From Tubiluchus corallicola (lineage: Eukaryota; Priapulida; Priapulimorpha; Priapulimorphida; Tubiluchidae): a DNA stretch of 64,000 nt. A program made the translations under genes and the position numbers. Below the pieces are notes generated by a model that was not told the origin of the DNA, searched no databases, and saw nothing but the letters and a program-made list of their open reading frames with translations. This document shows positions 17,236 to 64,000 of this stretch, one piece after another (within the stretch, counting starts at the first letter, position 1; each line of letters begins with the position of its first letter). The stretch covers positions 1,373,947 to 1,437,946 of the forward strand of contig JAQGDQ010000013.1 of NCBI GenBank assembly GCA_030141605.1, given 5' to 3'.

Positions 17236-17870
17236 ACGAAGCGGTTTGATACTTTCGTATCAGTGGAATATCACTTAACACGAAACACTTGTTCTTGTGT
17301 CTTAGATTTTATTCGTTTCTTTGTGTCGCCATAGATGGCAATGACAGAATCCTTTTCGAAAAAAGCCTATGTGAATCAGTAACGGATCATTGTGGAACTC
17401 AATAGGAATATACTAGAATAAATGCCACAACGATTATCAGAGTCAGATTTGTGATTTACATCTTGAATTCAAGATAGGGCATTGACGGCAATGCAGGAAA
17501 CTTTTTTGTTAATTCACACTTTTTGTGTGGTAGCTGGTTGCGTGGTTATGTTCTTTAAATGCCCAGAAGTGTAAAGGAGTGATGAAACTAGTTCCCTTAT
17601 GTAAGCTTTTTTACATTTTTTGTTATTATATTGTCAGATTTTCTTTTATTTAGCTTTTCAGTACAGTTAAGGTTTGCTTATAGTACACCTAAATTAAAAA
17701 TGGCAAATATTTTCAACTAACTGAGGTTATAAATGGGTCTCATAATAGAATTAAGTGCTAAAGAATGATGCCAAGCAAGTTTACTGCTTTCGTAGTATAC
17801 TCACTAAACAAGCATATTTATGCTGATTATTTTGCTAAATTAAACGTTGTTTATGTATTTATTTTTTCAG

Positions 17871-19661
17871 ATTCTAAGCTACATCTTTGGATTCTTGGGT
17901 GTCTCTGACAGGAAATTTGCATCTTTGGTGTGCCGGCAGTGGTACGATTCATCATTGCATCCTCGTCTTCATCAAGAAATAGTGTTTGTGTTTACGATAA
18001 ACGCCAGCGTAGAAATTGTAAGCTATGTGGCTTGTAGAAAACCTCCACATGTTATTTTCAATGCTTTAGATATTGCCACAGCTAGATCTTTACTTGGCAC
18101 TGTCACATTTTCGTGGGGAGCGAAACTACACAGTCTTTCTTTGAAAGGTTCCGATGTAGCAGAGTCCGACTTGGTTCACATATTGGCTAAATGTATCAGT
18201 CTACGCTGTCTGGACCTATCCGGCTGCAACAGTTTGTTTATGTCTGGCAATGTTCTGAAAGAAACAGAAGATCAGGATAAAGTGAGAATGGCACTGAAGA
18301 ACTTGACTGATCTGCGTCTTTGCAACAACAGGTACATTAGTGACAGTGTGTTCAACAGATTAATGTCTGTGATGCCAAATATATCCAGTTTAGCTCTGGC
18401 TTCCTGTTACATCACGTTTAACAAGTTGTGTATCTTAATCGGCAGCTCTAGGACAAATACCATGATCACGTTCGATAACATTGTGGACTTTTTGAGCACA
18501 AATGCCAGTAGGATAAAGTCACTTGATTTTAGTCGCACCTCGATGGGTAGCAGTTCGTTGATGACTCTTGCTTCTATCCAAGGACTGCGTCTTCGCAGCC
18601 TTCGTTTGACCACCTGTCGGGAGATTAGCGACAAAGCCATGGCTCATCTATGCAAGTATCAGACTGAACTCAGATATCTAGATCTGGAAGGTTGCTTGGA
18701 CATTACGGATACGTCTGGTAAAGCAATTGCAGCTTACTTAACTAACCTGATATCGCTAAATGTTAGTAAATGCCGTGGACTTACAAACAGTGCCATTTGC
18801 CAACTGAGACATTTGCAACACCTGAAAAAACTGGAATTGTCTACCTGCTTACAAGTGACATCGGATGGCTGGATTCAGGCTTTAGACAATTTGCTAGACT
18901 CTAATCGGATTAGTTACCTGAATCTAAGTTATTGTGCACAGGTGGGAGATTCGGCTGTGTCATTAATTGCAGAGAAAATTCCAAATCTGAAGCACTTGGA
19001 TCTGACTGCTTGCAACATGATTACTGATAGAAGCTTGGAAGCAGTCTGTACTAATCTTGTTAATCTGTCTTACTTAAGTGTTGCGTGGTGTCCTGCAATT
19101 GAACATCTCATAATGCGAGTGCGAAAAAATGGCGTATCTAATGAGAGTTTTAGTGCAGACAGTCTTGCTAAAGGTTCAAGCGATGTGTCACAATCATTTG
19201 ATAGCTTCTTGGAACTTTATAGCATTAATAACCTACGTAAATTGAGAACTTTAAGTCTATGTGCTTGTACGAAACTAAATAAACATGCCTTGTACCACAT
19301 GCAACTACCTATGCTTACTAGTTTAGACATTGGTATGATTCCTATATTGTCTGATAAGCATCTGTGTATATTTGCTCTGCAATGTCGTTCCCTAGAAGAG
19401 CTTAATATTAGCCAGTGCCATCAGGTAACTGATAAAGGCTTGATGTATTTTTTACGCAAAAACTCCAAATTGAAAGTGCTGGACATATCAGGTTGTGATT
19501 ATATTACAGCAGCGACGTTGGCATGCGTGGAGCAGTTCTGCATTTCTCTTCGACGTTTAGATGTTTCTATGTGCAGTGGTGTTTCATTAGAAGCTGTGGA
19601 GAACATGGAACTTAACTTGCCTCATCTCAATGTAGTCAAACGTATGCTACATTATAGGTGA
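17871..19661 (+). CDS. F-box/LRR protein, large 3'-terminal coding exon (5' exon missing)
   Basis: Predicted substrate receptor of an SCF-type ubiquitin ligase: the F-box would bind SKP1 and the leucine-rich repeats the substrate. The exon opens at an acceptor (TTTATTTTTTCAG, ending 17,870) in phase 0. It starts inside an F-box (ILSYIFGFL...ASLVCRQWYDSS), so the usual leading LP residues must come from an upstream exon that I could not find. The 596 codons to TGA contain about 12 cysteine-type leucine-rich repeats of the L-x-x-LxLxxC-x-x-(I/V)TD form (for example LRYLDLEGCLDITD, LKHLDLTACNMITD, LKVLDISGCDYIT), as in FBXL/AMN1 proteins. A less regular Ser-rich loop (SADSLAKGSSDVSQS) interrupts the repeats at about exon residues 436-450. 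An ATG at 17,847 lies in the polypyrimidine tract and is an unlikely start. The orthologue was not identified. Confidence 0.85.
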   Translation: MLSYIFGFLGVSDRKFASLVCRQWYDSSLHPRLHQEIVFVFTINASVEIVSYVACRKPPHVIFNALDIATARSLLGTVTFSWGAKLHSLSLKGSDVAESDLVHILAKCISLRCLDLSGCNSLFMSGNVLKETEDQDKVRMALKNLTDLRLCNNRYISDSVFNRLMSVMPNISSLALASCYITFNKLCILIGSSRTNTMITFDNIVDFLSTNASRIKSLDFSRTSMGSSSLMTLASIQGLRLRSLRLTTCREISDKAMAHLCKYQTELRYLDLEGCLDITDTSGKAIAAYLTNLISLNVSKCRGLTNSAICQLRHLQHLKKLELSTCLQVTSDGWIQALDNLLDSNRISYLNLSYCAQVGDSAVSLIAEKIPNLKHLDLTACNMITDRSLEAVCTNLVNLSYLSVAWCPAIEHLIMRVRKNGVSNESFSADSLAKGSSDVSQSFDSFLELYSINNLRKLRTLSLCACTKLNKHALYHMQLPMLTSLDIGMIPILSDKHLCIFALQCRSLEELNISQCHQVTDKGLMYFLRKNSKLKVLDISGCDYITAATLACVEQFCISLRRLDVSMCSGVSLEAVENMELNLPHLNVVKRMLHYR

Positions 19662-52640: not shown

Positions 52641-53234
52641 TACACCTTATAAAGGTGCCCGCCTTTGATACGTGGAGAGAGTGGAGCATCGCAAACGCAA
52701 TCGCAGTCTGAACAGATGAGCTAATACTCACAGTTTCAAAGCTGACTGCAATTCATCAGCTGATTTCTGGCAAAATTATAGTAACATCTGCATAAAGTAA
52801 AAGATCCTAATATCAGTATAATTCAGAAAAAATACCACTACTGTAATATTCTCTAAAAAAATATAATCATCGGAATTTTAATATTGTTTACACGCACTAT
52901 GGACGCAGCCATTATGGATGCTCTTATGTTATGCACATCTTCGCTATTCGGCGAGCACACCAGATGCTGACCGAAAGATAAACACAGGGCGATGAAACTT
53001 TAGAACCCGGTGAATTCCCGGTTTGGAAAACAAGAAAATAAAAACAAAAAGGATCAAACATAAGCTGATAAATTAGATTAAATGTAGACAAACATATGCG
53101 CTGTTAAAAAAGAGCAAAACAAATTGATGAAATTATAATTAGAAGACTGAAAGTAACAAAGTGTAATGAACAGCCCACCCCTCGGTTACAATGCACAATC
53201 CATGGTAACTTAGCGACGCCGACGCTCAGGCGGC

Positions 53235-53243
53235 TATATAAAG
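53235..53243 (+). promoter_or_regulatory. LTR TATA box
   Basis: TATATAAAG in a GC-richer context (GGCTATATAAAGGGAGGG). Transcription should start near 53,262-53,270. The same motif is at 63,180-63,188 in the 3' LTR. Confidence 0.75.
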
Positions 53244-53324
53244 GGAGGGCCAGGCCATTGACCACACACATCCGAACATTTTCAAAGTGATAAAGAGCTA
53301 CAGCAACTGAAGATTCATCTAAAC

Positions 53325-53347
53325 ATGGAAAAGAAGCAGGATGAGAA
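53325..53347 (+). CDS. Leader mini-exon / uORF of the retrotransposon
   Basis: An ATG in good context (AAACATGG) opens seven codons plus two bases and meets a consensus splice donor (GAGAA/GTAAGT, cut after 53,347). If unspliced, the frame stops after eight codons (TAA at 53,349), so in genomic RNA it is a short upstream ORF ahead of gag. If spliced to the acceptor at 61,382/61,383, the two leftover bases complete a codon and enter the ORF3 frame. It is conserved unchanged in the 3' LTR (about 63,269-63,291). Confidence 0.55.
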
Positions 53348-53399
53348 GTAAGTTTTAACTTACTAGATAAAGCTAGCTTTCAAAACTAGCTAGGATGTG

Positions 53400-54840
53400 T
53401 CAGGAATCTAGAACCTAGAAAAGAGTTCCAGAAATGAAAAGAGTTTCAGAAACACTAGGTTCTAGAAACCAAAAGAGAAGCTAGAAAAGGGTTTCAGGAT
53501 TGAAGCAGTTGCAGAGACAAAAAGAGTTCCAGAAAGTTTCTAGATTTAAAAGAGTTGCTGAGAGTTCCAGGAAAATCCAAGATTTAAAAGAGTTGCTGAG
53601 AGTTCCAGGAAAATCCAAGATTTAAAAGAGTTGCTGAGAGTTCCAGGAAAATCCAAGATCAAAAGAGTTCCAGTAATTTCCAGGAATTAAAAGAGTTCCA
53701 GTAATTTCCAGGAATTAAAAGAGTTCCAGAATTAAAAGAGTTGCAGAAATTTCCTGGAATTAAAAGAGTTGCAGAAATTTCCTGGAATTAAAAGAGTTGC
53801 AGAAATTTCCTGGAATTAAAAGAGTTGCAGAAATTTCCTGGAATTAAAAGAGTTGCAGAAAGTTCCAGAATAAAAGAGTTCCAGAATTAAAAGAGTTGCA
53901 GAAAGTTTAGAGAATAAAAAGTTTCCAGAATTAAAAAGGGGTTACGAGAAATTTCTGGAATTAAAAGAGTTGCAAAGTTCTGGAATTAAAGTTAGAAATT
54001 TCCTGGAATTAAAAGAGTTGCAGAAAGTTCCAGAATAAAAGAGTTCCAGAATTAAAAGAGTTGCAGAAATTTCCTGGAATTAAAAGAGTTGCAGAAAGTT
54101 CCAGAATAAAAGAGTTGCAGAATAGAAGAGTTCCAGAATTAAAAGAGTTCCAGAATTAAAAGAGTTGCAGAATAAAAGAGTTCCAGAATTAAAAGAGTTG
54201 CAGAATAGAAGAGTTCCAGAATTAAAAGAGTTGCAGAATAGAAGAGTTCCAGAATTAAAAGAGTTGCAGAATTGAAAAGAGTTGCAGAATTAAAAGAGTT
54301 CCAGAATTAAAAGAGTTGCAGAATAGAAGAGTTCCAGTAATTTCCAGGAATTAAAAGAGTTCCAGAATTAAAAGAGTTGCAGAAATTTCCTGGAATTAAA
54401 AGAGTTGCAGAAAGTTCCAGAATAAAAGAGTTGCAGAATAGAAGAGTTCCAGAATTAAAAGAGTTCCAGAATTAAAAGAGTTGCAGAATAAAAGAGTTCC
54501 AGAATTAAAAGAGTTGCAGAATAAAAGAGTTCCAGAATTAAAAGAGTTGCAGAATAAAAGAGTTCCAGAATTAAAAGAGTTGCAGAATAGAAGAGTTCCA
54601 GAATTAAAAGAGTTCCAGAATTAAAAGAGTTGCAGAATTAAAAGAGTTGCAGAATAAAAGAGTTCCAGAATTAAAAGAGTTGCAGAATTAAAAGAGTTGC
54701 AGAATAAAAGAGTTCCAGAATTAAAAGAGTTGCAGAATAGAAGAGTTCCAGAATGAAAGAGTTCCAGAATTAAAAGAGTTGCAGAATAGAAAAGTTGCAG
54801 AAAATTCCTGGAATGAAAAAGTTCCACTTAAAAAAAAAAG
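53400..54840 (+). repeat. LTR minisatellite, 15-18 bp unit
   Basis: Dozens of copies of AAAAGAGTTGCAGAATT and AAAAGAGTTCCAGAATT, with longer TTTCCTGGAATT variants near the start and three 36-base units (CTGAGAGTTCCAGGAAAATC) at 53,565-53,660. Copies in the 3' LTR (63,360 to the window end) differ in number and order. It lies inside the predicted R region and so in every transcript unless spliced out. Confidence 0.95.
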
Positions 54841-55267
54841 TTGCAGATCACAAGTCAGCTAGCTATTGATCCGGGGTTATTCGAGATCTTATACAAATAA
54901 GTGAAAGAAGAGACTGGATCATAGTTTTGCTCACTTTTAGTTAAATGTGGAACAGGAACATAGTACCTATACACAGGACTGGCATGAAAATTGCAACTGC
55001 TTAATCTTACTGAAACCTGGACTCTAGCATTCTTTGCATGACCAATTTCAATTGCTATAGAAGATTTCTTTAACTAGAAACAAGAATAGTATTGATGATA
55101 TTGTGGATGTTACCTAACTAAAATTAGCTGTATTTTATAGTAAAGTCAATAGAATAAATTATTTTTAATCTTAGTTCACTTGTTGTTGCTTTTACTCAGT
55201 TTAAATTTGAATTACAAGTAGCCTCAAGATATTGTCAAAGCTGAACCCAACATTTTTTTTATGTAAA

Positions 55268-55283
55268 AATAAAGTAAAATAAA
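55268..55283 (+). terminator. LTR poly(A) signals
   Basis: Two overlapping-style AATAAA motifs (55,268-55,273 and 55,278-55,283), about 80 bases before the LTR end, followed by GT-rich sequence. This sets the R/U5 border close to 55,300. Confidence 0.6.
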
Positions 55284-55362
55284 GTTAGTTGCAGAAGTCA
55301 ATGATAGGTGGCACTTTAACCTAATATCATACCCTTAAGCCGAGCTGTGCCACACTACATTT

Positions 55363-55380
55363 TGGGGGCTCGTCCGGGAT
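55363..55380 (+). other. Primer-binding site, tRNA-Pro
   Basis: TGGGGGCTCGTCCGGGAT, three bases after the LTR end. It is an 18-base perfect complement of the 3' end of eukaryotic tRNA-Pro and the same primer site as in murine leukaemia virus. Minus-strand DNA synthesis would start here. Confidence 0.92.
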
Positions 55381-55450
55381 TTTGAATTTTGTTTTGAGGC
55401 ATTGTGATTCAAACTGAGTAAGAACGGCAAGCTGTAATAAAATTGGTAAA

Positions 55451-56878
55451 ATGACAGCTATATTATCCTACTTAAAATCCTTTCTGACTTCCACTCCTAA
55501 AAGTAGCACTGATACAATTGTGGGAGCACAAAATACAGAGGTCCACACAGAAAATGCTATGCATAAGATGGAAACAGATGGAGCAGAACAAGATAGAAAA
55601 TTCAGCAAGAGAAGAGCAACACTCCCAGCAGCACTGCAAAAAGAAGAAAGCTTGCAGCCGACTACATTACAGATAACACCATCTGTAAAACCAAAAACAA
55701 CTTTATCCAATCTCGGTACACCTAGTACTGAAAGCAAGCGAAAACGTGCGAGACATACAGGCTGGATTGAAGCACCACCTGTAGAAGTACATTCACCATG
55801 GTCAGAATGGTCAACAGAGGGAAATGCATCAGAAGCTGGTGAAGAAGTAGAACCAAGATGGCCACATATAAGTTATACAACACCAAATCAGCCTGAAGTT
55901 GGATGGACACCACTGCCCCATCTTACCAGACAGTCAACTCCAACTGCGACAACACAAGCAAAAGGAGCAGGCAAAATACGCAAAGAAAAGAAGCCTCCTA
56001 CTTTTAAAACAGGAGATGGCTTGCAGTTCAGACAATTTATTGCAAAGTTTGAACTAGTTGCAAAACACAACAATTGGCCAAGAACTGAATGGGTTACCCA
56101 CCTACCCTTATGCTTGGAAGGGGATGCACTTGAAGTTGCAATGGAAATGGATTTGGATTCTGGTGAAGTGACTTACATGTCACTCATCCAAGCACTGGGT
56201 AAACGTTTTGATCCAGCTGAACGCATGCTACAACATCGCAGTGAGCTGAGGCATCGAATGAGAAAATTAAGTGAAACTCCGGAAGAATTTGGAGCTACAG
56301 TTCGACGTTTGTTTGGCTTAGCCTATCCTGGTTTGTCAAAAGAAGCTAGTGAAGCTTTACTAATTGATAAATACCTGGAAGGACTTGGTGACATAGAAGT
56401 CAGAAAGCATGCCAGCCTCCAGGAACCAAAAACGCTTGAGGATGCAATAACAAAAGTTGCACAATATGAGGCAGTGACTAAGGAGGCCGCCGAAGCTAGA
56501 AGCAAGAAGCCGCTACAACCGAGAATCAACCAAGTGAATTATACACACAAAGCATCATCAAGCAAAGAAATAACTTTGGAAGAAATTATGAAAGAGCTGA
56601 CCAGTGTAAAATACCAGCTGCGTGAACTCACTAATAATGAAAAACAAGAAAAGAAGTTTAATGTTGAATCAAATATGCAAAAACAAAATGAGGTGAGAAA
56701 TCAAAATGACTGGCGTGCGAAGGTTGAATGTTACTACTGTCACAAGCCTGGACATGTGATGAGATTTTGCAGAGAAAGATTTCCCAAGATGACACAGTTT
56801 TCGATAGCTACATCTCCAAAAAGACCAAGAGAAGAAGCTGTTGGTTCTGAAAACCAGGTATGCAAGCAGTTAAACTAA
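55451..56878 (+). CDS. gag: Gag of the Ty3/gypsy-type element
   Basis: 475-residue structural protein that would form the virus-like particle and package RNA. The N-terminal 190 residues are Ser/Thr/Pro-rich and probably disordered. About 195-345 is the retrotransposon Gag capsid fold (for example WVTHLPLCLEGDALEVAM, LGKRFDPAERMLQHRSELR, FGATVRRLFGLAYPGLS). A CCHC zinc knuckle is at C427-x2-C430-x4-H435-x4-C440. The frame ends at TAA directly after a G TTA AAC slippery heptamer, so part of translation should pass into pol. The ATG is the first in the frame after the primer site. No interruption was seen. Confidence 0.93.
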   Translation: MTAILSYLKSFLTSTPKSSTDTIVGAQNTEVHTENAMHKMETDGAEQDRKFSKRRATLPAALQKEESLQPTTLQITPSVKPKTTLSNLGTPSTESKRKRARHTGWIEAPPVEVHSPWSEWSTEGNASEAGEEVEPRWPHISYTTPNQPEVGWTPLPHLTRQSTPTATTQAKGAGKIRKEKKPPTFKTGDGLQFRQFIAKFELVAKHNNWPRTEWVTHLPLCLEGDALEVAMEMDLDSGEVTYMSLIQALGKRFDPAERMLQHRSELRHRMRKLSETPEEFGATVRRLFGLAYPGLSKEASEALLIDKYLEGLGDIEVRKHASLQEPKTLEDAITKVAQYEAVTKEAAEARSKKPLQPRINQVNYTHKASSSKEITLEEIMKELTSVKYQLRELTNNEKQEKKFNVESNMQKQNEVRNQNDWRAKVECYYCHKPGHVMRFCRERFPKMTQFSIATSPKRPREEAVGSENQVCKQLN

Positions 56879-59800
56879 AGGAGACCGGGCACGGGGCCAG
56901 TGTCCCGGTCATGAATACACAGGCCTCAGGAATACTACCTTGCACTGGCCCCGTGACGGGAAAGCAAGAGGTAGTTGTAGCTCTGAACAAAGAAGAAGTA
57001 GTTATTCCTCCTCACTCCGATCTGATAAAAAAGAGAAGTGAGAACATTGTAGTTCTACCAGTAGATTATAAATATTGTTGGCATGTAGAATTATTAATCA
57101 ACAGTTTAGATGTAGATTTTGTAATCGATAGTGGAGCCAGTGCTAGCATATTAGATGTTTACATGTATTATAGTATTCCGGAAGAAGAAAGACCAGTCTT
57201 GAAAAGCGCCAAAAAGAATCTTCAAGCAGCTAGTGGACACACACTGATTCAAATGGGAGAAGCTGAATTCCAAGTTATATTAGCTGGAATAAGTACCACT
57301 AGTACAATGATTGTCGCTTCCATTGGAGGGCTCTTCGGAATTTTAGGATTGGATTTTCTTGAACCAAGAAGTGCTGTGCTAGATATGCAGCAAGGAATTC
57401 TCCATATTGGTGAAGTTACTATACAATGTTTCAAGAATTCAGTGGATAGTTCAGATTATGAACATGAGTCTTCTTCAGATAATCAGATTGACTTAGTGTT
57501 GCCAGAAAATATTGGTGAAAGGGCAGCTCCAAAATCTCTGCTCCCTGAGCACTTGCATCAACTAATAGAAGAAATCAGCTCTAAGCTTTCACCTAGCGAG
57601 CAATCTTCTCTCATAAATTTGATACAGGAATATCAGGATATATTTGTGGGGCCCGATAATAAATATGGCAGGACAAACTTGGTAAGACACGTTATTGACA
57701 CTGGTACTGAGCACCCAGTTAAACAAGCTCCGAGAAGACTGGCTGAACAGAAAAGAGCCATTGCTGAAGCTGAAATAAATAAAATGCTCAAAGAACAAAT
57801 TATTGAACACAGCAACAGTCCCTGGGCCTCACCGATCGTGTTGGTGACTAAAAAGGATGGCTCCACACGATTTTGCGTTGATTATTGTCAGTTAAATGAA
57901 AAGACAATTAAAGATGGGTTTCCACTGCCAAACATTCAAGAGATTTTTGACACATTACGTGGGTCCCACTGGTTCTCTACTTTCGACCTAGCTAGCGGGT
58001 ATTGGCAAGTTGAAATGGATGAAACGTCGAAGCCTAAAACAGCTTTTGTTACACGACAAGGATTATTTCAGTTTCGAGTGATGCCGTTTGGCCTTTGTAA
58101 TGCACCAGCCACATTTGAGAGGTTAATGGAAGAAGTACTTAGAGGCTTACAATGGAAGAATTGTCTTGTCTATCTCGATGATATTATTGTTTTTGGCAAA
58201 AACTTTGAAGAGGCTAAAAATAATTTAAAGACAGTATTTTCTCGCTTGAGGAAAGCAAATTTGAAAATCAAGCCATCAAAAAGCACACTGTTTCAGACAA
58301 GTGTTCGGTTCCTAGGGCATGTAGTGGATAGTCAAGGCATCCGATGTGATCCAGACAAAATACTGGCTGTAAAGAATTGGACATTCCCAAAAACACCTAC
58401 ACAAGTACGTAGCTTCTTGGGATTTGCTTTATATTATAGAAAATTCATTCCACATTTTGCCTCAATTGCAGACCCCCTTACTGCCTTGACAAAGAAAGGA
58501 GCAACATTTATTTGGAATGATTCATGTATGGCAGCATTTAACACCTTAATAGATCTTTTAACACGAAGTCCTGCATTGGCATATCCAACACAGGAGGGAA
58601 AATTCATCTTAGATACAGATGCCAGTAACTCTGGGATTGGAGCTGTTTTATCCCAGTTACAAGTCGATGAAGAGAAAGTCATTGCTTATGCTAGTAGGAC
58701 ATTAAACCAGTCACAAAGGCAGTACTGTACTACAAAAAAAGAATTACTGGCTGTTATCACATTTGTAAAACAATTCCACCATTATCTATGGGGAAGACAT
58801 TTTAGGATTCGGACTGATCATGCAGCACTAACTTGGCTCATCAATTTCAAGAACCCAGAAGGTATGATAGCAAGATGGTTATCTATTTTAGACACTTATG
58901 ATTTTAGTGTTGAGCATAGAAAAGGAACACAACATGGGAATGCTGATGGATTATCCAGAAAACCAAATACAAGGGTTAGCAAATGCCCAAGAGAGGACTG
59001 TAATGACGACAGGCATAAAGGCACGAAAGAAGCCCACAGTTCTAAAGAAATTAGCAAGAGGACACGTAACGATATTTTAAAAGTTCCAAACAATGCTGAG
59101 TGTGATTTTATCTATGCAATACCAGCTGGAAATGGAGAAGAGGAAAGCAGTAGTTTCAGAAAAGGTAAAGTAAGATGTAGAAAAGAATGCTTATGCATGG
59201 AAGGTAATTCCAGAAAGGGGGAAGATGGACTTGACAATGTTTATGAAGACCAGGAAGCAGCGCACAGACTGTGCATAACAGAGGCACCTACTTGTGGAAA
59301 GGATGCAGCGCACGACTTGTGTTCTGTAGAGGCTCCTGGTGATATCAGGGAAGCAGCGCAGAAATCGTGTTTGGTAGAGGCTCCTCCTCATATGGAAGAA
59401 GCAGCGCACGATTTGTGTTTAGGAGAGGCTCCCTATATGGCTGAGGAAGCAGCGCATGGTTCATGTTTTGTAGTGGCTCCCAGCAGAATATTGGCAAGTC
59501 AAGAAATAGAGGTAGAAGATGAAGAAGAGAAAAAGTTTGTTTTAGATTTGTCAAGAGAAGATGTTATTAACATGCAACAGGAAGAGGAAGCAGTTTTGTT
59601 ATTCAAGGAGTTGAAAGAAGAAGATTTGGACCGACCCAGCTGGAAAGATGTGAAAGATAAACACCCAGATTTCAAGGCATACTGGAACTTGTTTGATGTA
59701 TTAGAGGTACGAGATGGATTGCTGTACAAGAAGTGGGAAACAGATGTAACACCAAGTGCTCCTGTATACCAGATGGTTGTACCAACTGCATTACGAAGGA

Positions 59801-61014
59801 AATTATTTAGAGCTTTGCATGAAACCAGAACTGGTGCACACCAAGGAATGCAGAGGAGTCTGTCATTATTAAAGCAACGGTATTACTGGCCAGGTTATCA
59901 GGCAGACATTAAAAGATGGTGCCTATATTGTGCTGCTTGTGCCAGAAGAAAACCTGGAAAAGGACCAAAAAGAGGTAAACTGCAACAACAGAGGGCAACT
60001 GGACCATTTGAAAGAATAGCAATAGACATTTTAGGACCACTAGAAGAGACTGATAAGAAAAATAAGGTGGTGATGGTCGTCTGTGACTATTTTACAAAAT
60101 GGGCCGAAGCCTATGCACTTCCTAATCACGAGGCATATACTGTTGCAGATGTGTTGGTGACCGAATTTATATGCAGGTTTGGAGTACCAATTCAAATACA
60201 TAGTGACCAAGGGCCAGACTTTGAGTCAAAGTTATTTCAAGAAATGTGTGCTGTTTTGCAGATTGACAAAACAAGGACAACCCCGTATCATCCACAATCA
60301 GATGGTCTCGTTGAGAGATTTATGAGGACATTACAGCAAATGCTGGCTATATTTGTTAACGATCATCGTGATGACTGGGATGACCACCTCCCTTATGTCA
60401 TGATGGCATACAGGGCAACCGCACATGCGTCTACCAATTGCTCGCCAAACTTAATGATGTTTGGTAGGGAAAACCATTTGCCATTAGATGTGATGGTGGG
60501 ACCTCCACCACAGCCAGAAAGACCTACACAGTGTCCACAGGAATACGTAGAATGGATAAGAGATGTTATAAAAGAGGCACACAATTTTGCTCGAGAATCA
60601 CTGGGAAAAGCTGCAGAAAGACAAAAACGAGATTATGATCAATTTGTGAAAAGGCTTAGCATTGATAAAGGTAACTGGGTATGGTACTGGTATCCACCAG
60701 CTACCAGGAGAAAATTAGGCCAAGGCTGGCAAGGCCCATATCTAGTACTAAAGAAGATTAATAATGTGACATACCAAATCCAGAGAGATGCAAAAGCTCC
60801 TGTTAAAGTAGTTCATATTGACAACTTGAAGCTTTATCATACTGATGAACCACCAATAGACTGGACAGAAATAGAGAAACTAGCAAATTCTGATGATGAA
60901 CAGCAACTAGAAGAATTTGAATTGAGTAGAATTTTTCCTACAGTTAATGAAGAAGTAGCAGAGAAAGAAGAAATGTATACAACAGGAACTACCACAATTC
61001 AAGAAAAAAAATGA
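56851..61014 (+). CDS. pol: Pol: protease, reverse transcriptase, RNase H, integrase
   Basis: Expressed as a Gag-Pol fusion by -1 frameshift. The pol frame opens at 56,851; residues are numbered from the first ATG (56,860, 1,384 codons), which need not be used. Protease: FVIDSGAS with Asp90 (DSG instead of DTG). Reverse transcriptase: FCVDYCQLNEKT and YLDD at 438-441. RNase H: FILDTDAS (Asp585 and Asp587). Integrase: zinc site H987-x6-H994-x26-C1021-x2-C1024; catalytic D1056, D1116, E1152 (DD35E); then a GPY/F module (WQGPYLVLKKINNVTYQI, about 1290). There is no chromodomain; an acidic tail ends the protein. Between RNase H and integrase is a 75-residue tandem repeat. The frame is intact, consistent with recent activity. 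Confidence 0.94.
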   Translation, partial: KPGMQAVKLKETGHGASVPVMNTQASGILPCTGPVTGKQEVVVALNKEEVVIPPHSDLIKKRSENIVVLPVDYKYCWHVELLINSLDVDFVIDSGASASILDVYMYYSIPEEERPVLKSAKKNLQAASGHTLIQMGEAEFQVILAGISTTSTMIVASIGGLFGILGLDFLEPRSAVLDMQQGILHIGEVTIQCFKNSVDSSDYEHESSSDNQIDLVLPENIGERAAPKSLLPEHLHQLIEEISSKLSPSEQSSLINLIQEYQDIFVGPDNKYGRTNLVRHVIDTGTEHPVKQAPRRLAEQKRAIAEAEINKMLKEQIIEHSNSPWASPIVLVTKKDGSTRFCVDYCQLNEKTIKDGFPLPNIQEIFDTLRGSHWFSTFDLASGYWQVEMDETSKPKTAFVTRQGLFQFRVMPFGLCNAPATFERLMEEVLRGLQWKNCLVYLDDIIVFGKNFEEAKNNLKTVFSRLRKANLKIKPSKSTLFQTSVRFLGHVVDSQGIRCDPDKILAVKNWTFPKTPTQVRSFLGFALYYRKFIPHFASIADPLTALTKKGATFIWNDSCMAAFNTLIDLLTRSPALAYPTQEGKFILDTDASNSGIGAVLSQLQVDEEKVIAYASRTLNQSQRQYCTTKKELLAVITFVKQFHHYLWGRHFRIRTDHAALTWLINFKNPEGMIARWLSILDTYDFSVEHRKGTQHGNADGLSRKPNTRVSKCPREDCNDDRHKGTKEAHSSKEISKRTRNDILKVPNNAECDFIYAIPAGNGEEESSSFRKGKVRCRKECLCMEGNSRKGEDGLDNVYEDQEAAHRLCITEAPTCGKDAAHDLCSVEAPGDIREAAQKSCLVEAPPHMEEAAHDLCLGEAPYMAEEAAHGSCFVVAPSRILASQEIEVEDEEEKKFVLDLSREDVINMQQEEEAVLLFKELKEEDLDRPSWKDVKDKHPDFKAYWNLFDVLEVRDGLLYKKWETDVTPSAPVYQMVVPTALRRKLFRALHETRTGAHQGMQRSLSLLKQRYYWPGYQADIKRWCLYCAACARRKPGKGPKRGKLQQQRATGPFERIAIDILGPLEETDKKNKVVMVVCDYFTKWAEAYALPNHEAYTVADVLVTEFICRFGVPIQIHSDQGPDFESKLFQEMCAVLQIDKTRTTPYHPQSDGLVERFMRTLQQMLAIFVNDHRDDWDDHLPYVMMAYRATAHASTNCSPNLMMFGRENHLPLDVMVGPPPQPERPTQCPQEYVEWIRDVIKEAHNFARESLGKAAERQKRDYDQFVKRLSIDKGNWVWYWYPPATRRKLGQGWQGPYLVLKKINNVTYQIQRDAKAPVKVVHIDNLKLYHTDEPPIDWTEIEKLANSDDEQQLEEFELSRIFPTVNEEVAEKEEMYTTGTTTIQEKK
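56869..56955 (+). promoter_or_regulatory. -1 ribosomal frameshift signal (gag/pol)
   Basis: The heptamer G TTA AAC (56,869-56,875) is in gag frame with the gag stop next to it. After a 7-base spacer comes stem 1, GACCGGG (56,883-56,889) with CCCGGTC (56,904-56,910). The loop sequence CACGGGGCCAGTG (56,890-56,902) is perfectly complementary to CACTGGCCCCGTG (56,943-56,955), so a pseudoknot or an alternative long hairpin can form. Slippage by -1 continues exactly in the pol frame. Confidence 0.85.
59254..59481 (+). repeat. Tandem peptide repeat inside Pol
   Basis: Five 15-17 residue units with the pattern EAAH-x-x-C-x-x-EAP (for example EAAHRLCITEAP, AAHDLCSVEAP, AAHDLCLGEAP), residues about 799-874. 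Each has one Cys, mostly one His, and a conserved EAP. It sits in the linker between RNase H and the integrase zinc domain, where Ty3/gypsy elements have no such array as far as I know. Confidence 0.85.
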
Positions 61015-61382
61015 TGAACCGTCCAGTAGCACTTCTGACACAATGCTAGGAAGAGGACAGCGGATGAGGAAACCTCCAAACAGACTTGACCTATAACTTA
61101 ACCATATTTTCTTCCTTTCCTCTGCTGCTGCATTAATTTTCTGTTAAAAGCTGTTATCTGGATTAGTTGCCCTGGGCAAGGCATTAAACTGCATCCAGCA
61201 TAAAAAAAAAAAAAATATAGAAAAGTATGAGTTAGTGACACTTGATAATCACATGTCACTTAGAAATGTATCACTTATTACAATTACAATGTAGAAAAAA
61301 AAAAGAAATAGGCAAAGGTACCTTAGTAAAAAAAACCGTGGAAAATGAAGTTATTAAAACACTATTATTTTGTCTATTTTAG
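61015..61382 (+). other. Spacer between pol and ORF3 with splice acceptor
   Basis: No coding sequence. Has an oligo-A run (61,202-61,214). It ends in a pyrimidine-rich acceptor (TTTTGTCTATTTTAG, AG at 61,381-61,382) that joins in frame with the LTR leader donor. Confidence 0.6.
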
Positions 61383-62331
61383 GAGGGAGACAGTGTACTG
61401 TTGTACAAACTGTGACTATAGGTCTCAAAGGACTGCCTATATGTCAAAACACTGGAAGGCATGTCATGGGAGTAGACAAATTCCCGCTACTTGGCCAACT
61501 AAGCGTCTTGAAAGGCCACCTCAGGCAACCTCTGTTGATAAAAGACCTCTGTCACCAGAAGGATCACCAAGATTGAGCCGCTCCAAATGGAGTACAACTA
61601 GTGACAGCAGTCTGGAAAGAAAAGACGGGAAGAAAGAGCGAGATTTAAAGAGTCATAATCAGAGGTCGGAACAGGAAAGCAAAATCAAAACAGCAAAATC
61701 ACCCAAAACAAAAAGAGGAACTTCCCCAGTTACAGTAAGGCCTGAGTTAAGTAATCCGAAGAACAGGGCCTTCAAGCCACCAACAAGCAACTCAACCTTC
61801 AGAAATTTCAGAAGCAGAAGTATTGTGAGGCAGAACAGCACCCATAACCTGACCAACCAAGTTAGAAAACCAACTAGACCTGCCTTACCACACTATAAAC
61901 CATACAAGGAAACACAGTCGAAAAATCTGCCAGTATTCCTTGCACCGCAGTCGGACAAGGTGCCACGAAAAGCTCCACCTCCATGCACAGAGCTAGATCA
62001 GATAGTCATGAGGGAAAAGATATTAAAATTAAAAAATGAGATCATGGAACTAGAGGAGCGATGCAGGGTAGCAGCTCTAAATAAGTGGGAAGCAGTTTTA
62101 GAGAAGAAGAGTAAAGAAATTACGGAGAAGAAAGAAAAAGAGTGGAATGAGGCAGTTGATCGTATGTATGAGAGAATGGAAACAACTGTAAGCAAGTTGG
62201 TGAGAAAGGAGGTGGAAAAGTTGGCTGAAAAGAAGAACACTGAAGGTCAACAACAAATGCCACCCACAAATACAGATATTTCTATAGATCTAGCTGTCTC
62301 CTCGGATGACTTCTCCAGTGAAGAGGACTAA
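61383..62331 (+). CDS. ORF3: C2H2 zinc-finger and coiled-coil accessory protein
   Basis: Placed where retroviruses have env, but it has no signal peptide or membrane segment. The frame is open from 61,345 (328 codons from that ATG). The sequence before 61,383 looks like intron, so the real start is probably the spliced leader codons at 53,325-53,347. Directly after the acceptor is a C2H2 finger, C20-x2-C23-x12-H36-x4-H41 (numbering from the 61,345 ATG), with the usual Tyr two residues before the first Cys. Residues 55-220 are basic, Ser/Pro-rich and probably disordered. Residues 225-305 are a Glu/Lys coiled coil (EKILKLKNEIMELEERC). The tail is acidic. A nucleic-acid-binding, multimerising role is an inference; no homologue is recognised. 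Confidence 0.75.
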
Positions 62332-62784: not shown

Positions 62785-64000
62785 TGTAATATTCTCTAAA
62801 AAAAATATAATCATCGGAATTTTAATATTGTTTACACGCACTATGGACGCAGCCATTATGGATGCTCTTATGTTATGCACATCTTCGCTATTCGGCGAGC
62901 ACACCAGATGCTGACCGAAAGATAAACACAGGGCGATGAAACTTTAGAACCCGGTGAATTCCCGGTTTGGAAAACAAGAAAATAAAAACAAAAAGGATCA
63001 AACATAAGCTGATAAATTAGATTAAATGTAGACAAACATATGCGCTGTTAAAAAAAGAGCAAAACAAATTGATGAAATTATAATTAGAAGACTGAAAGTA
63101 ACAAAGTGTAATGAACAGCCCACCCCTCGGTTACAATGCACAATCCAGGGTAACTTAGCGACGCCGACGCTCAGGCGGCTATATAAAGGGAGGGCCAGGC
63201 CATTGACCACACACATCCGAACATTTTCAAAGTGATAAAGAGCTACAGCAACTGAAGATTCATCTAAACATGGAAAAGAAGCAGGATGAGAAGTAAGTTT
63301 TAACTTACTAGATAAAGCTAGCTTTCAAAACTAGCTAGGATGTGTCAGGAATCTAGAACCTAGAAAAGAGTTCCAGAAATGAAAAGAGTTCCAGAAACAC
63401 TAGGTTCTAGAAACCAAAAGAGAAGCTAGAAAAGGGTTTCAGGATTAAAGCAGTTGCAGAGACAAAAAGAGTTCCAGGAAAATCCAAGATTTAAAAGAGT
63501 TGCTGAGAGTTCCAGGAAAATCCAAGATTTAAAAGAGTTGCTGAGAGTTCCAGGAAAATCCAAGATCAAAAGAGTTCCAGTAATTTCCAGGAATTAAAAG
63601 AGTTGCAGAAATTTCCTGGAATTAAAAGAGTTGCAGAAATTTCCTGGAATTAAAAGAGTTGCAGAAATTTCCTGGAATTAAAAGAGTTGCAGAAATTTCC
63701 TGGAATTAAAAGAGTTGCAGAATAAAAAAGAGTTGCAGAAAATTCTTGGAATGAAAGAGTTCCAGAATTAAAAGAGTTGCAGAATTAAAAGAGTTCCAGG
63801 AATTAAAAGAGTTCCAGAATTAAAAGAGTTGCAGAATAGAAGAGTTCCAGAATAAAAGAGTTCCAGGATTAAAAGAGTTGCAGAATAGAAGAGTTCCAGA
63901 ATTAAAAGAGTTGCAGAATTGAAAAGAGTTGCAGAATAGAAGAGTTCCAGAATTAAAAGAGTTGCAGAATTGAAAAGAGTTGCAGAATTGAAAAGAGTTG
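62785..64000 (+). repeat. 3' LTR, incomplete at the window edge
   Basis: Nearly identical to 52,842-53,520, including the TATA box and leader donor. I noted about three substitutions and two A-run length changes in that part. The minisatellite part diverges in copy number, and the LTR continues beyond the window. Confidence 0.92.

Follow-up and report, generated by a model that had tools for sequence, protein, structure and literature searches.

A candidate spliced zinc-finger gene in a young Ty3/gypsy-type retrotransposon of Tubiluchus corallicola

Behind pol of a Ty3/gypsy-type retrotransposon of Tubiluchus corallicola lies an open reading frame (ORF3) encoding a C2H2 zinc finger. We consider it likely that ORF3 is the third gene of this young element and that it is expressed from a spliced subgenomic mRNA. 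The gene itself, its coding constraint, a layout found throughout the clade, and the conserved state of exon 1, of both splice sites and of their phase are all visible at the level of the DNA.

Element architecture and predicted splice

The window, i.e. the whole stretch of 64,000 nucleotides analysed here, holds at its end an LTR retrotransposon of Ty3/gypsy type, with all parts on the + strand in the order 5' LTR-gag-pol-ORF3-3' LTR. The 5' LTR (52842..55359; 2.5 kb, its 3' end predicted from the primer binding site and the related element C1477) has its TATA box at 53237; a tandem array of 17-bp units occupies approximately 53.4-54.8 kb. It is followed by a primer binding site, TGGGGGCTCGTCCGGGAT (55363..55380), which we take to be of the tRNA-Pro type. 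Matches to a Ty3 capsid-like domain and a zinc knuckle in gag (55451..56878) both lie below the Pfam cut-offs; pol (56860..61014) contains protease (under the cut-off), reverse transcriptase (RT), RNase H and integrase. The features of a Ty3/gypsy element are thus present, namely LTRs, primer binding site, gag, and a pol with integrase behind RT-RNase H, and in the window copy neither the gag nor the pol frame is interrupted. The 3' LTR (62785..64000) contains a second copy of exon 1 and donor and runs past the end of the window, with 49 more bases left on the contig. Since the two LTRs share 99.5% identity over their first 570 bases (1 mismatch, 2 gaps), the insertion is young.

Among the best named relatives of the RT region are a pseudoscorpion protein (56%) and a Pinctada (pearl oyster) protein (64%), the latter carrying the name Gag3-Pol3 in one source. 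The integrase part of pol displayed no relative among viral contigs, and an Rfam search of the window gave nothing at gathering score. No envelope gene was found, ORF3 being the sole + strand ORF of at least 80 aa behind pol in the window and having no Pfam envelope match.

Several minor features accompany this architecture. The gag and pol genes have 19 bases in common (56860-56878), read in different frames, as in -1 frameshifting. Four 48-nt tandem repeats (EAAHxLCxxEAP; 59253-59480) are located in pol between RNase H and integrase. The LTR array consists of long 17/33/28-bp tandem repeats (53400-54810 and 63350-64000), without any ATG between 53435 and 54752. Far upstream, at 17847-19661, the window contains an unbroken 604-aa frame (TTG start listed), which by eye resembles an F-box/leucine-rich-repeat host gene.

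The coding part of the predicted exon 1 (53325..53347, +) begins with an ATG at 53325-53327 in the LTR and encodes MEKKQDE plus the two bases AA. It abuts the splice donor GTAAGT (53348..53353, +; context GAG AA/GTAAGT), so that the intron would start at 53348. Behind pol, a polypyrimidine tract with the acceptor AG (61368..61382, +; AG at 61381-61382) reads TTTTGTCTATTTTAG/GAGG and opens the coding part of exon 2 (61383..62331, +). Joined, the two exons form an open frame of 323 aa, in which the junction lysine codon (residue 8) is composed of AA from exon 1 and G from exon 2. The proposal of an earlier note on this DNA, that the LTR start codon and donor join this acceptor in phase, thus holds with regard to the sites and the frame. 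On unspliced RNA, the LTR ATG would yield an 8-codon ORF only, with its stop within the donor (AAG TAA GT). Read from its own ATG, ORF3 spans 61345-62331 (+); this second in-frame ATG (61345..61347, +) lies within the proposed intron, 38 nt before exon 2, and is also present in the diverged relative R.

Splice sites were scored across 53265-62331 with rough weight matrices. The donor ranks fifth of 437 GTs and the acceptor 12th of 927 AGs; with such ranks the score alone is no proof of a splice pair, and the earlier judgement that the pairing is unlikely by chance was overstated on this count. Locally, the donor is clearly at the top of the LTR and leader (3.8 bits, next 0.5), as is the acceptor in the stretch 61015-61500 (2.9 bits, next -0.6). 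It is the conservation of the sites, the same layout in related subfamilies and a probable spliced-RNA fossil that go beyond chance. The donor is further predicted to pair with a downstream ACTTACT in a hairpin (53347..53364, +; 7 bp, -5.9 kcal/mol). The exact window junction, sought as a DNA copy with up to 3 mismatches, had 0 hits genome-wide.

Copies, related subfamilies and a probable spliced-RNA fossil

Comparison was made within the element's own assembly (343.5 Mb, 2344 contigs). Two copies, A and B, are near-identical to the window element. A is C2125, from which C2105 and C44 show no difference over the 4108 bases compared; B is C1790, with which C1045 agrees in full, likewise over 4108 bases. 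The 5' LTR of C1045 is slightly different from that of C1790, so C1045 may be a further copy or an allele. The identical stretches within each of these two groups of contigs lie equally far from the contig ends; redundant contigs in the assembly therefore inflate copy counts.

In both A and B the donor and acceptor strings are exactly as in the window. The gag frame is split and pol open in A, and gag is open and the pol frame split in B; hence the window element is the sole copy found with intact gag-pol. The earlier note had pointed to copies with intact gag-pol and without the sites as evidence against splicing: A and B do keep donor and acceptor, but neither has both frames open. Relative to the window, A displays an apparent tandem duplication in gag, and B an apparent extra 56 bases or so in the first part of pol.

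LTR sequences were read at 15 of 22 places, 11 of them distinct; the seven left out are four on C2105/C44, two 3' LTRs (C1790 and C1045) and a short match. The ATG and the 23-nt exon 1 are retained with unchanged phase in 14 of the 15 rows (10 of the 11 distinct ones), C1184 being the single row without the ATG, and the donor reads GTAAGT in 13 rows and GTAAGC in 2. Indels upstream of exon 1 occur in four rows (R, C1153, C1184 and C541).

The relative R (C2087) is rearranged, and the stretch read contains no match to gag or to the RT region of pol; the evidence taken from it is restricted to LTR head, acceptor and ORF3 codons. Its 20-nt donor/hairpin block agrees with the window at 20 of 20 positions, as compared with just 9 of 33 in the 33 nt that follow. 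R and the window differ at two positions within the final 15 nt of the polypyrimidine tract, and both changes exchange one pyrimidine for another.

A search with the integrase part (111 of 565 candidates scored) delimits a group at 56-78% identity, followed by a drop to at most 48% for all others listed. Beyond the window family it comprises C1477, C1959, C1289, C1816, C1280, C349, C541 and C1060; C2020, C586, C1461 and C2082 were added via ORF3. Directly before the ORF3 start, an acceptor is found in 13 of the 16 loci read (C1477, C1289, C1959, C1816, C1280, C586, C349, C541, C1060, the window itself, A, B and R). The remaining three are C2020, in which the intron is removed, and C1461 and C2082, which carry a deletion. 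In family 2 (the first six of the 13) the acceptor stands immediately 5' of the ORF3 ATG; in C349, C541 and C1060, an ORF3 with the same finger spacing lies just past the acceptor that scores highest in the stretch scored (ranks 1/110, 1/112 and 1/180, respectively).

Families 2, 3 and 4 have the ORF3 ATG in exon 2, 0-6 nt past the acceptor. The window family has no ATG at the start of exon 2 and therefore needs that of exon 1 or the intronic one, so that a start in the LTR is needed in this subfamily only. Comparison of these sequences gives good support to the earlier proposal that an accessory gene for a zinc finger, placed where env would be, is spliced and starts in the LTR, though the LTR start does not extend to the clade as a whole.

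The candidate LTR donor of family 2, AAAG/GTGAGA, is strong at 6.6 bits, the runner-up reaching 1.5 in C2020 and 5.4 in C1477; it is altered in the 3' LTR of C1289. The corresponding leader junction, sought as a DNA copy, had 0 hits in the genome. A leader donor was also sought in C349 and C1060, and none was resolved there. A GTAAGT beside pol of C1816 was excluded as donor evidence, its location in an LTR not being established. C1289 (50000-67000) is chimeric, with LTR head and gag of family 1 followed by pol, ORF3 and 3' LTR of family 2, which suggests recombination between the families. In three more distant elements (C984, C1743 and C2131; approximately 42% in integrase), no such ORF was found in the 2.2-2.5 kb behind the integrase match, where a longer Pol tail is present; the sole finger-motif match among them, in C1743, crosses stop codons and was rejected.

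One family-2 element probably records a splicing event. In C1477 and C1959, pol reads AAAAGATGGT/GTAAGT; in C2020 it reads AAAAGATGGT/ATGAATACATC, pol being joined to ORF3 exactly after TTTTGTTTCAG. The stretch GTAAGT...TTTCAG, 1302 nt in C1477 coordinates, is absent, and its end is exactly the family-2 ORF3 acceptor. GTAAGT occurs once in the removed interval, and this pol donor has a whole-site rank of 12 among 336 in its element. Donor-like/acceptor-like pairs bound 9 of 9,572,500 possible deletions, by a criterion set after seeing the case. C2020 is flanked by two LTRs that are 98.7% alike. In the simplest reading, the deletion probably stems from reverse transcription of a spliced RNA, which would mean that the ORF3 acceptor was used there. 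The donor involved lies in pol and not in the LTR, so C2020 bears on the acceptor and does not itself show the LTR-ORF3 junction.

Two further candidates for such fossils, C1461 and C2082, were rejected, as acceptor and finger were lost by an internal deletion at a short shared sequence that is not splice-like. This shared deletion runs from integrase into the C-terminus of ORF3 and leaves an open fused frame in C1461. Of two pattern matches, in C1080 and C1771, the former agrees with C1477 in 20 bases only and was taken as chance.

The ORF3 protein and its evolution

The predicted protein consists of one C2H2 finger, a basic low-complexity middle part, a charged segment that is probably helical, and an acidic tail rich in serine. 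The finger (61402..61467, +; C-x2-C-x12-H-x4-H) begins seven residues past the junction, with C15, C18, H31 and H36 as ligands of the spliced protein, which agrees with the earlier description of a finger close to the junction. It scores 18.3 against a Pfam gathering score of 27; the finger of C349 is above the cut-off (PF13909, 30.3 against 27) and that of C1477 below. The best profile matches are weak and belong to fingers of host proteins, e.g. ZNF462 and ZHX1. As for the conservation of the ligands, also proposed earlier as a check, the spacing is common to all four subfamilies, but a ligand is lost in C586 and C1289; stops fall in the finger region of C1060 and C541.

Between the window and R, an 80% relative, ORF3 displays a dN/dS of 0.23 (dS 0.454, dN 0.106; 288 codons, 25 skipped, 2 stops dropped). 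In family 2, the ratios of C1477 versus C1959, C1816, C1289 and C1280 are 0.38, 0.52, 0.32 and 0.40, respectively. The same check, suggested in the earlier note, turned out less favourably for C1816 versus C1289 (0.81); ratios are raised because several of the copies compared have decayed. For comparison, the integrase part yields 0.83 (C1477 versus C1816), and gag yields 1.05 at low divergence (window versus C1289). Between the ORF3s of C1477 and C2020, all 4 changes are non-synonymous and none is synonymous. The near-identical copies of the window element differ too little from one another to show selection. Taken together, ORF3 looks to be under coding constraint.

Searches against 5.8 billion proteins with ORF3 alone (E <= 1, 1391 candidates) and with an alignment of two ORF3 sequences (E <= 10, 4603 candidates) found no relative outside its own genome. 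Identity of ORF3 between families 1 and 2 is 24%, with poor conservation outside the finger. Both the absence of matches beyond its relatives and the poor conservation beyond the finger would fit a fast-evolving accessory gene.

Known systems, possible function and rival readings

The earlier note stated that Ty3/gypsy elements usually make only Gag-Pol and sometimes Env. This was overstated, with Cer1 CERV and the ORF3s of rotifers as precedents. A spliced non-Env protein is already known from Cer1 of Caenorhabditis (PMC10309623, PMC3315495), and the nuclear CERV protein is required for the export of genomic RNA (PMC10309623). Cer1 resembles the window element in being a Ty3/gypsy element without env, in having an ORF between pol and 3' LTR that serves as last exon of a spliced mRNA, and in retaining its acceptor among relatives (TTTCAG, or TTGCAG in one species). 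Like ORF3, CERV has no obvious homologs outside its own group, the nematodes, and its potential leucine zipper and Cys-rich possible finger may be likened to ORF3. The two differ in exon number and finger type: of the five CERV exons, three are in the gag frame, and its possible finger is of the C4 kind, whereas ORF3 would have two exons with a start in R of the LTR, and a C2H2 finger. The role in export is shown for CERV and inferred for ORF3.

ORF3s of bdelloid rotifer LTR elements, likewise family-specific and located behind pol, are described as made from spliced messages (PMC5408684). The types given in that source are GDSL, DEDDy, CC, TM and env, and the term zinc finger is absent from its main text. 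In the portions of the literature consulted (including PMC5408684, PMC8220671, PMC2774666 and PMC11963269), we found no gypsy element with a C2H2 ORF3. Spliced ORF3s are already known from Cer1 and env-bearing elements and are stated for rotifers; the literature searched offered no C2H2 ORF3 with its start in the LTR.

Two further groups offer parallels. In complex retroviruses, regulatory proteins such as lentiviral Rev are made from spliced RNA with an early donor, as proposed here, and Rev lets intron-containing RNA exit the nucleus. They differ from the window element in using several splices in place of one, and no env was found here. Errantiviruses and other env-bearing gypsy elements express a third ORF in the env position from spliced RNA, but ORF3 of the window is a charged C2H2 protein without an envelope-type match.

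Where transcription starts, that the 53347-61383 junction is made, and what ORF3 does, we infer as follows. Transcription would begin below the TATA box of the 5' LTR. The donor, located in the first part of R, would then be joined to the acceptor behind pol, fusing an 8-residue leader to ORF3, and unspliced RNA would serve as genome and as gag-pol mRNA. The predicted hairpin, whose sequence is retained in R despite its divergence, may temper splicing at the donor and thereby help to leave a share of the RNA unspliced.

By analogy with CERV and Rev, we tentatively hypothesize that ORF3 is a nuclear nucleic-acid-binding regulator which enables intron-containing genomic RNA to exit the nucleus. 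No sequence feature of ORF3 proves binding of RNA over DNA. More speculatively, this clade may have independently evolved a Rev/CERV-like switch, in which the element governs the export or the splicing of its genomic RNA through a spliced C2H2 protein, a hairpin in the LTR masks the donor, and one subfamily has moved the start codon into the LTR. If so, LTR retrotransposons other than retroviruses would have acquired regulated splicing with an accessory regulator on more than one occasion, and a single C2H2 finger could be recruited to this end. The element would also provide a second testable system, beside Cer1, for the nuclear exit of intron-containing retrotransposon RNA. C2020, with its exact loss of the intron, suggests that such RNA can return to the genome as a DNA copy after splicing.

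The same spliced protein might act on DNA instead, binding the LTR or a target and regulating transcription or steering integration; this is the main rival reading, and we regard it as somewhat unlikely. C2H2 fingers are mostly DNA-binding, the weak best profile matches of ORF3 are to fingers of host proteins, and its tail is acidic and serine-rich, all of which would fit this reading; a single finger, however, rarely confers sequence specificity. The nearest functional precedent within Ty3/gypsy works in RNA export (PMC10309623).

Alternatively, the LTR donor could mainly serve a leader intron before gag, with an acceptor near 55199 and removal of the array, ORF3 mRNA being a minor by-product. 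At 55199 lies the end of a fair acceptor, TTGTTGCTTTTACTCAG, which scores 2.7 bits, and an unspliced gag leader would be approximately 2 kb long with a dozen ATGs. However, the array could presumably not persist in the LTRs if the genomic RNA lost this intron, and this reading would not account for the conservation of acceptor and finger in ORF3. This appears improbable. That ORF3 is translated from the ATG at 61345, by an internal promoter or by reinitiation, with the splice sites being incidental, is very improbable: the in-frame ATG exists and R has kept it, but related subfamilies have their ATG just past the acceptor with polypyrimidine before it, exon 1 is conserved, the two changes between the window and R in the end of the tract are pyrimidine swaps, and C2020 probably arose through use of the ORF3 acceptor. 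A captured ORF that is decaying, has no function and carries its splice sites by chance would fit splice scores that alone are not extreme, but hardly dN/dS values mostly well under 1, presence throughout the clade and a conserved phase, and we consider this reading extremely improbable.
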